NCBI GenBank assembly: GCA_030747595.1
Contig: JASLKK010000016.1
Location: 1 to 33,724, forward strand
Source: Acidimicrobiales bacterium
GTDB taxonomy: Bacteria > Actinomycetota > Acidimicrobiia > Acidimicrobiales > MedAcidi-G1
DNA: 33,724 nt
Direction: 5' to 3'
A program made the position numbers and the translations under genes. Shown one piece after another: positions 4,163-10,783 of the stretch. The first letter of the stretch is position 1. Each line of letters opens with the position of its first letter. The notes under the pieces are model-generated. The model made no database searches and was not told the origin of the DNA. It worked only from the letters and a program-made list of their open reading frames with translations.

Positions 4163-4534
4163 TCAGGTGTCGAGGAGTTCGAGGATGCGATCGGCTGGTC
4201 GGGCGACTACTGCCCGGTTGCCGAGGATTCCAATGGGTCGCTGCATGAGTTCGGGATGTGCGGAGATCAGGTCGACCACGACGGTCGGGTCGTCCAGCGA
4301 CGCCGGGTTGACGTTCAACGCATCGAACCCATCGCCCCGGCGGATCATCTCCGCAGGGCCCAGAGCGACCATGTCCAGGATTCGCACCAGCAGGTCGTGA
4401 TCCAGCGGCTCGTCCATGTACTCGATGACGTCGAACTCGACGCCGCGCTCCTCGAGAATTTCGAGGGCGCCCCGGGACTTCCCTCAGACCGGGTTGTGGA
4501 CGAGTAGGAGCCGACGCGGATCGATGGAAGCCAT
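4163..4534 (-). CDS. ArsC-family protein, candidate selenoprotein (in-frame TGA at catalytic Cys)
   Basis: A 123-codon thioredoxin-fold gene of the ArsC/Spx type, interrupted only by TGA at 4484-4486 (codon 17). Around it the reading is HNPV-U-GKSR, matching the HNPxCSxSR active site of glutaredoxin-coupled arsenate reductases with TGA exactly on the cysteine. The frame continues with family features: MIRRG, the conserved LMQRPI arginine and the VARP arginine near the C-terminus, then ILELL. There is no other cysteine in the protein. It ends in TGA, so TGA also works as stop here. The ATG is supported by TACCGT 7 bases upstream. Most likely a Sec-containing reductase of arsenate or of another oxidised substrate. 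The remaining alternative is a pseudogene with a nonsense mutation, unlikely given the twin at 10397. Confidence 0.8.
4445..4470 (-). promoter_or_regulatory. Possible SECIS stem-loop of the first arsC-like gene
   Basis: Downstream of the TGA on the minus strand, GCGC (14-17 bases after TGA) pairs with GCGC (36-39) and CTCGA (19-23) with TCGAG (29-33), leaving an AATTC loop 24-28 bases from the TGA. The distance suits a bacterial SECIS, but the loop lacks the usual G. A competing fold using bases 28-48 would give a GG-starting loop. The assignment is therefore weaker than for the second gene. Confidence 0.4.
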
Positions 4535-8076: not shown

Positions 8077-9018
<942 letters not shown>

Positions 9019-9984: not shown

Positions 9985-10014
9985 ATGACGGCGTACAGAC
10001 GAGGGCTGGACTGA
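9985..10014 (+). CDS. Nine-codon leader ORF (MTAYRRGLD)
   Basis: ATG 9985 to TGA 10012-10014 encodes MTAYRRGLD, with two consecutive arginine codons AGA CGA that are unusual for this GC-rich DNA. Its stop overlaps the next ATG (TGATG), so ribosomes finishing it could re-initiate on the downstream gene. The hexamer TAATGT 8 bases upstream suggests that the mRNA starts at this ATG. It may be a regulatory leader peptide or simply a coupling device. Confidence 0.35.
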   Translation: MTAYRRGLD

Positions 10015-10319
10015 TGATCATCCGGGTTGATGCAGCGGGTGAGATCCGGGTCGACGAGCACGACGTGTTCACCGACTTCCACGTCGAGGACAGCGCCGGG
10101 TGTTCCACCGCTGACCTGGCAGCCACCATGGGCGAGGACACCCGGGCCGACGGCGAGTACCTCTGGATCGCCGAGACGGCTGTCCGCCATTGGCTGTCAG
10201 GCCGCATCGACGAAACGTGGGACGAGGGCTTCTCGGGCATGTTCGCCTATGCCCGTTCTAAGGGTTGGACCAACGACGCAGGCACCCATCTACGGTCCCA
10301 CGTCGAGCACCCCGACTGA
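10014..10319 (+). CDS. Small conserved-looking protein of unknown function (101 aa)
   Basis: I do not recognise this family. The 101-residue product is acidic and soluble, with no membrane segment or signal. It has a beta-rich start (MIIRVDAAGEIRVDEHDVF), a single cysteine at about 30, and a helical, tryptophan-rich middle (EYLWIAETAVRHWL, WDEGFSGMFAYARSKGW). Codon use is typical of the genome, supporting a real gene. ATG 10014 is preferred to longer in-frame starts because those overlap the crotonase gene; GAGGG lies 9 bases upstream and the leader ORF stop overlaps the start. It sits 77 bases ahead of the second arsC-like gene, likely in the same transcript. Confidence 0.7.
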   Translation: MIIRVDAAGEIRVDEHDVFTDFHVEDSAGCSTADLAATMGEDTRADGEYLWIAETAVRHWLSGRIDETWDEGFSGMFAYARSKGWTNDAGTHLRSHVEHPD

Positions 10320-10396
10320 TTCGCTTCCGATCGACTTATTCCAGACTGAGAATCCGGCCCATCGAGTTTCAGGCCCCGAACATGACAGGAGTTTTC

Positions 10397-10783
10397 GTGG
10401 CAGACCTCACCGTCCTACACAACCCCCATTGACACGCATCCAAGAACGCCTTGGCGGTCGCCGAGGAGTTGGGAGTCGACGCCCACGTCGTGCTCTACAT
10501 GAAGGAACCACCGGACGAGGCGTTGCTGCGACGCATCGCCGCGGGGCTGTCCGATCCCGTGGAGGACCTGGTCCGTAAGGACTCGCAGTTCAAGAAGTTG
10601 GAGTTGGTCGAGGAAGATTACGTGGGCGACGCCGATGCGGTGGTTGAACTACTGGCCCGCCGCAAGGCCCTCCTGCAGCGACCCATCCTGGTGCGGGGCG
10701 ATCTGGCAGGCGATGGACCGCTGGTGACCACCGTGGGGCGGCCCAAGGACCGGCTCTACGAGTTCATCGGCGGCGGAAGCTGA
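10397..10783 (+). CDS. ArsC-family protein, strong candidate selenoprotein (in-frame TGA at codon 12)
   Basis: A 128-codon ArsC/thioredoxin-fold gene starting at GTG 10397 with AGGAG 5 bases upstream. Codon 12 is TGA (10430-10432), giving LHNPH-U-HASKNAL, which lines up with the HNPxCSxSR active site; E. coli ArsC has its catalytic cysteine at the same number, 12. The family's three substrate arginines are kept (VRKDSQFKKL, LLQRPI, TVGRPKD). The product has no cysteine at all and ends in TGA. A SECIS-like hairpin follows the TGA. Beginning instead at TTG 10451 would remove the active site and leave a fragment. A Sec-dependent, probably glutaredoxin-coupled reductase is inferred; arsenate is only one possible substrate. 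It ends 7 bases before rraA. Confidence 0.87.
10445..10470 (+). promoter_or_regulatory. Bacterial-type SECIS element
   Basis: Thirteen bases after the TGA a stem-loop forms: AAC pairs with GTT, and CCTTGGC (10449-10455) with GCCGAGG (10460-10466), capped by the tetraloop GGTC (10456-10459). A single G/A mismatch separates the two stems. The apical GGUC, and a U (10452) three pairs below it, are the key features bound by SelB in the E. coli fdhF SECIS; here the U faces a G instead of bulging. The loop lies 24-27 bases from the TGA, within the usual range. Confidence 0.75.

Follow-up and report, generated by a model that had tools for sequence, protein, structure and literature searches.

A probable ArsC-family selenoprotein, with selenocysteine at the catalytic position, in an Acidimicrobiales bacterium

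The gene at 10397..10783 on the forward strand of the window (the whole 33,724-nucleotide stretch of Acidimicrobiales DNA that was analysed) almost certainly encodes a selenoprotein, and very probably one of the R773-type ArsC family. This is a judgment from sequence comparison: relatives have TGA or a cysteine codon at the catalytic position, the genome contains the machinery for selenocysteine (Sec) insertion, and the TGA is followed by a SECIS hairpin with covariation. These results support an earlier, sequence-only reading of this DNA, which had proposed a selenoprotein. As that reading described, the gene begins with GTG at 10397, and the AGGAG at 10387..10391 (+), five bases 5' of the start, is the likely ribosome-binding site, as read in the sequence. 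Codon 12 (10430..10432, +) is a TGA at the site of the HNPxC cysteine: the motif around it is VLHNPH-U-HASK, and it aligns to the catalytic Cys12 of R773 ArsC (1jzw). The frame then continues to an ordinary end (the stop TGA at 10781-10783), giving 128 residues with Sec at 12 and not a single cysteine codon. The read-through protein matches the ArsC family of Pfam (PF03960) with E 5.4e-10 and 39.9 bits, against a cut-off of 24. We propose that SelB and tRNA-Sec would decode UGA at codon 12 as selenocysteine and that the hairpin, with its GGUC loop, would direct this. A gene caller that takes TGA as a stop would lose the active site. This is what happens in our mechanical list of open reading frames, where the frame begins at TTG 10451 and yields 110 amino acids without the active site, just as had been expected of automatic annotation.

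One mark of a bacterial selenoprotein is an in-frame UGA where homologues have cysteine. We sampled 198 genomes from the order, of which 117 contain a homologue, with 126 matches in all. At codon 12, 64 of the matches have TGA, 61 have TGC or TGT, and one is a fragment that falls short of the codon; none of the 125 readable matches has TAA, TAG, or another sense codon. In a second collection of genome contigs, we looked at the best 80 of 215 confirmed loci, picked by protein similarity alone, and all 80 have TGA, even though the query carried Cys at position 12. (The two collections overlap in some contigs, for example L022 and L064.) So the alignment of U against C in ArsC homologues, which had been suggested as a check, is confirmed, with TGA or Cys codons only. 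Other stops at this codon in relatives were also sought, and there are none among the 125 order matches or the best 80 of the 215 loci.

The TGA form is the best match in 58 of the 198 order genomes, and it goes with selA. We found selA in 57 of the 58 TGA genomes, in 32 of the 58 Cys genomes, and in 28 of the 82 genomes without a readable match. (The 82 include G165, whose ArsC fragment is short of codon 12; weak selA fragments in G021 and G180 were left out of this tally, which took the genomes with selA from 119 to 117.) The difference between TGA and Cys genomes has a Fisher p of 1.4e-8 if kinship is ignored. The sole TGA genome without a selA match, G170, is 83% complete. Both states occur within one genus (g90), with TGA in G375 (L235) and TGC in G102 (L133/L234); G102 has no selA match and no GGUC at the fixed place. 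A quick tree (103 rows, 119 columns) has seven changes between Sec and Cys, of which well-supported branches force only two. Because just those two are forced, and 48 of the 100 inner branches are open, we do not claim any direction of change.

A second mark is the presence of selA, selB, selC, and selD. We searched the source genome (2.46 Mb in 84 contigs, 95.9% complete), as the sequence-only reading had recommended, and all four are present rather than missing: selA scores 398 bits, selB 266, tRNA-Sec 67, and selD 357, all above their cut-offs. selA adjoins selB on contig 2, with tRNA-Sec about 14 kb further, and ARAGORN confirmed the tRNA-Sec on that stretch, with anticodon TCA. The selD gene (contig 4, 97546; L228) has its own in-frame TGA, at GAG-U-GCK, and from this sequence SelD itself is likely to be a selenoprotein. 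A second place, on contig 8 (107077-107160), scores exactly at the tRNA-Sec gathering score of 47.0 bits; it is perhaps another tRNA of similar shape.

The SECIS hairpin is at 10449..10466 (+), with the stem CCUUGGC/GCCGAGG and the loop GGUC at 10456-10459. A stem-loop had been placed 13 bases after the TGA; the hairpin exists, but its seven-pair stem begins 16 bases after the TGA, and the distance from TGA to loop is 23 nt. A model of bacterial SECIS elements, as given in PMC13188914, has a loop of 3-9 nt, a stem of 4-16 bp, G in the first two loop positions, a spacing of 16-37 nt, and an energy of -7.5 or lower. The hairpin lies within these limits, with a loop of 4 nt that begins with G, a stem of 7 bp, a spacing of 23, and -12.0 kcal/mol when folded alone. 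We also fetched and folded the SECIS of E. coli fdhF, which it had been said to resemble. The two share the GGUC apical loop, three closing pairs, and a U next below, so the features of loop and closing pairs stand. The bulge does not, as the U is unpaired in fdhF but forms a U-G pair in our gene. Also, the fdhF loop comes 18 nt after the UGA instead of 23. The two strands of the window together have 857 TGA trinucleotides, and only the one at codon 12 has a GGUC tetraloop on seven pairs 16-37 nt after it, by a criterion that was fixed after the site had been seen. Because Rfam has no match at gathering score anywhere in the window, the case for a SECIS rests on comparison and not on a curated family.

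In that comparison, every one of the best 80 of 215 second-collection loci has GGUC at the fixed place, as do 34 of the 64 order TGA loci (the other 30 do not), versus 0 of the 61 Cys loci. (If rows with N are excluded, there are 122 distinct TGA stretches, of which 92 have GGUC.) Similarly, at least six of the seven pairs form in 116 of 144 TGA loci versus 6 of 61 Cys loci. Covariation, which the sequence-only reading had named as a check, holds as well: among 43 diverged sequences, pairing holds in 99.3% of cells, both partners change in three of the pairs, and the covariation is 0.234, versus 0.122 in shuffles. None of 500 shuffles was as high, and every slid version of the stem was lower. 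Having GGUCGC was the condition for including these 43 sequences, so the loop and the 3' strand of the two innermost pairs are fixed by selection; the pairs that covary are outside this stretch. The codons around the loop are nearly invariant. Across the best 80 of 215 loci, all 80 encode Val21 by GTC, a codon used for 334 of 767 valines elsewhere in the same genes; Ala20 is GCG in 79 of 79 (elsewhere, 146 of 564); and Leu19 is TTG or TTA in 79 of 80 (elsewhere, 167 of 986). Codon tallies over loci that were picked for GGUC were discarded, as the picking itself fixes Val21 as GTC.

Relative to shuffled synonymous codons, TGA genes have a more stable hairpin region (mean z -1.42, n = 124) than Cys genes (0.01, n = 61). 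For the hairpin region of the window, z is -2.58, and 0 of 200 shuffles were as low; single genes of the GGUC group have a median p of 0.06. In 18 further sequences, including the window's own paralogue, z is -1.18, and 11 sequences with another loop, that of the hairpin AAUGC-CGUGC-GCAUU, are no more stable than their shuffled versions (mean z +0.62). As the rows are related and partly repeated, the shuffle and rank tests overstate significance. Several other lineages (L049, L050, L137, L138, L140, L142, L148, and others) have a different hairpin, AAUGC-CGUGC-GCAUU, after the TGA. Given the varied loops and stabilities among TGA genes, we conclude that the family holds more than one type of signal. 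A search with the pattern TGA-N21-GCGGTCGC matched 116 of 260 loci (L233 and L236, which are among the matches, are ArsC loci). The sole match off an ArsC codon, L010, is in the window's own genome and sits in a short frame between stops; we took it as chance.

The protein has a confidently predicted fold (mean pLDDT 93.1) that matches E. coli ArsC (1i9d) with Z 14.2 and 2.5 Å over 116 residues, at 27% identity. Because Spx (1z3e, Z 14.6) is tied with this and other ArsC relatives reach 15.3, the fold by itself is not enough to assign a function. The conserved residues say more. PMC5593903 lists His8, Asn9, Cys12, Ser15, Arg60, Arg94, and Arg107 as residues of arsenic resistance or of the active site, and Pro108 as well. 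Among the 203 loci with complete proteins, 184 proteins are distinct (125 with Sec and 59 with Cys). The Sec proteins keep His8, Asn9, and Ser15 in 124 of 125 cases each and Arg60, Arg94, Arg107, and Pro108 (in R773 numbering) in 125 of 125 each; all seven are present in the window protein. Its Arg60 (codon at 10574..10576, +; also Arg60 in R773) is Arg in all 125 Sec and all 59 Cys proteins. Its Arg95 (10679..10681, +; Arg94 in R773) and Arg115 (10739..10741, +; Arg107 in R773, as aligned by profile) are each Arg in 184 of 184 proteins. So our protein is like R773 ArsC (1i9d, 1jzw) in its fold, in its catalytic residue 12, and in Arg60/94/107, His8, Asn9, and Ser15. It differs in having Sec for Cys12, in its 128 residues versus chains of 138-141, and in that there are no ars genes among the window neighbours that were scanned. 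Since it scores 65.7 bits on TIGR00014, below the curated cut-off of 106.05, we file it as an ArsC-family, arsenate-reductase-like protein and not as the named equivalog.

We think that arsenate reduction is the likely chemistry of the Sec protein, given which residues it keeps. In the reaction of R773 ArsC, as described in PMC10820871, a single cysteine (Cys12) acts in a pocket of three arginines, and the other two thiols come from glutathione and glutaredoxin. This scheme suits a protein whose Sec12 is accompanied by no cysteine. The selenolate of Sec12, with His8 beside it, would attack arsenate in the pocket of Arg60, Arg95, and Arg115. With no cysteine of its own, the protein would need a small thiol and a redoxin to resolve the adduct. 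(Some further Cys is present in 30 of the 125 Sec proteins.) In an actinobacterium, mycothiol and mycoredoxin could replace glutathione and glutaredoxin. An mshC-like gene (442 bits, cut-off 485) and a mycoredoxin-like gene (75.8, cut-off 89.5) both score below cut-off, and at E 0.001 these families also match in 14 and 11, respectively, of 14 control genomes.

The genome context does not back a role in arsenic resistance, because there is no match to ACR3 or ArsB in the bacterium's own genome (95.9% complete) and because ACR3 does not track the gene across the order. ACR3 has a match in 48 genomes, of which we counted the 38 above cut-off: 7 of 58 Sec genomes, 10 of 58 Cys genomes, and 21 of 82 other genomes; for Sec-ArsC genomes versus all others (31 of 140), p is 0.12. 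The same-strand neighbours upstream are a gene for a PII nitrogen regulatory protein (8680..9018, +; Pfam P-II), an enoyl-CoA hydratase, and a small acidic ORF, and those downstream are an RraA-like gene and an alcohol dehydrogenase. We treat the PII gene as context rather than as a part of the selenoprotein. Among the best 80 of 215 loci, 46 have a PII gene ahead of the ArsC gene in the same orientation, and in 20 of these the two are 16-99 bp apart; counting just the 66 of these 80 loci with at least 2.9 kb of upstream sequence, 38 have it. In another 95 loci of the order, where flanks extend about 1 kb, PII is found in 1 of 33 with TGA (L144, from another family) and 0 of 62 others. So the linkage to PII belongs mainly to one clade, and it is a hint that the role may not concern arsenic. 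The small acidic ORF (10014-10319, +; 101 residues) has a relative ahead of the selenoprotein gene in 24 of the best 80 of 215 loci; Pfam gave no match for the longer frame around it.

About 6 kb from the gene is a second ArsC-family gene (4163..4534, -), which the sequence-only reading of the first gene does not mention. It also has an in-frame TGA (4484-4486) at the catalytic position, in the motif HNPV-U-GKS (UxxS), and no GGUC at the fixed place after that TGA. A second TGA copy of ArsC is found in 5 of the 6 genomes of the same family in our sample.

Could the TGA at codon 12 be a true stop, whether in a pseudogene, by sequencing error, or ahead of a shorter protein, begun at TTG 10451, that would have no active site? 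The mechanical ORF of 110 amino acids would suit the last of these, but we find all of them extremely improbable. The TGA recurs at this very codon in 64 order loci and 80 second-collection loci (partly on the same contigs), and the only alternative is Cys. Downstream of it, over codons 13-102, dN/dS is 0.045-0.188 in 15 pairs of the window gene and a relative, with dS saturated in some (15 of 16 pairs were used; L053 was left out for N). On the 5' side, which a protein from TTG would not include, His8 and Asn9 are each kept in 124 of 125 Sec proteins. The codons around the hairpin loop, after the TGA, are frozen. It is even harder to credit that TGA has been reassigned genome-wide to an ordinary amino acid (Cys or Trp). 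The alignment of TGA with Cys is what one would see if it had been, but both this gene and its paralogue end at a TGA, the genome has a tRNA-Sec whose anticodon is TCA (by ARAGORN on that stretch), and TGA at codon 12 goes with selA and, for a large part of the family, with a hairpin missing from the Cys homologues.

If the protein is a selenoprotein, as we maintain, it might still have a housekeeping function, as a selenol-dependent reductase of thiols or mycothiol or as a reductase of an oxyanion other than arsenate. We view this as a possibility to be taken seriously, if a clearly lesser one than arsenate reduction. It would account for a genome without a match to ACR3 or ArsB, for the lack of association between the gene and ACR3, for the PII gene that precedes it in 46 of the best 80 of 215 loci, 20 times by less than 100 bp, and for the TIGR00014 score below cut-off. 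On the other hand, the arsenic-resistance residues listed in PMC5593903 are kept, with Sec for Cys12, and the protein does not look like the YffB/YusI paralogues: their mark, according to the same source, is Lys93, and the matching position is Gln in 125 of 125 Sec proteins. A narrower version, in which the protein is a selenol reductase with a housekeeping role, linked to nitrogen signalling and not to arsenic resistance in the Acidimicrobiia, is more doubtful still; we raise it because of the nearby PII gene, the lack of ACR3 and ArsB here, and a Sec/Cys state that follows the host's Sec machinery. If it were true, then the substrate would be new. Finally, the protein has the same fold as Spx (tied with ArsC, as noted), so it could conceivably bind RNA polymerase as a redox regulator of the Spx kind. 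This seems very improbable to us. Regulators of the Spx/MgsR type have a CxxC switch, but where CxxC has its second Cys (position +3), the window protein and 124 of the 125 Sec proteins have Ser, giving UxxS. Also, the best profile match to Spx has E 8e-16, versus 1e-30 for arsenate reductase, and the His/Arg set of ArsC is kept. So we continue to favour an arsenate-reductase-like selenoprotein.

Because UxxS selenoproteins of the arsenate reductase type have been catalogued since 2005, our gene adds to a type that is already known. Fourteen such sequences were reported from the Sargasso Sea in 2005 (PMC1088965), a set from Global Ocean Sampling lists ArsC 1 with 77 (PMC2398784), and the UxxS type appears in later lists (PMC9312934 and PMC13188914). 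So the sequence-only reading was right that ArsC-like selenoproteins have been reported from marine metagenomes. The marine proteins and ours share the family (PF03960/COG1393), the catalytic Sec, the UxxS motif, and a downstream SECIS, and those too were predicted from marine DNA. The descriptions of them that are available to us name no host lineage, whereas here the genomes are Acidimicrobiales-like and have sel genes, and we follow the Sec/Cys state against selA. By the description in PMC1794560, Desulfotalea and Desulfuromonas, which are Deltaproteobacteria, have ArsC-like selenoproteins; these are alike in family and in having Sec but belong to another phylum. The arsenate reductase-like selenoprotein UxxC (NF041106), as listed in PMC13188914, is also an ArsC-family selenoprotein, and it differs in having a second Cys at +3, where the window protein has Ser15. 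In a search of open-licence papers, we did not find a description of the Acidimicrobiia as host lineage or of the pattern of Sec/Cys state versus selA.

Our results tie a selenoprotein family that is known from marine fragments to a bacterial lineage that has its own decoding machinery. And since Sec and Cys forms of the one enzyme occur as a natural set, the reason for using selenium can be tested.
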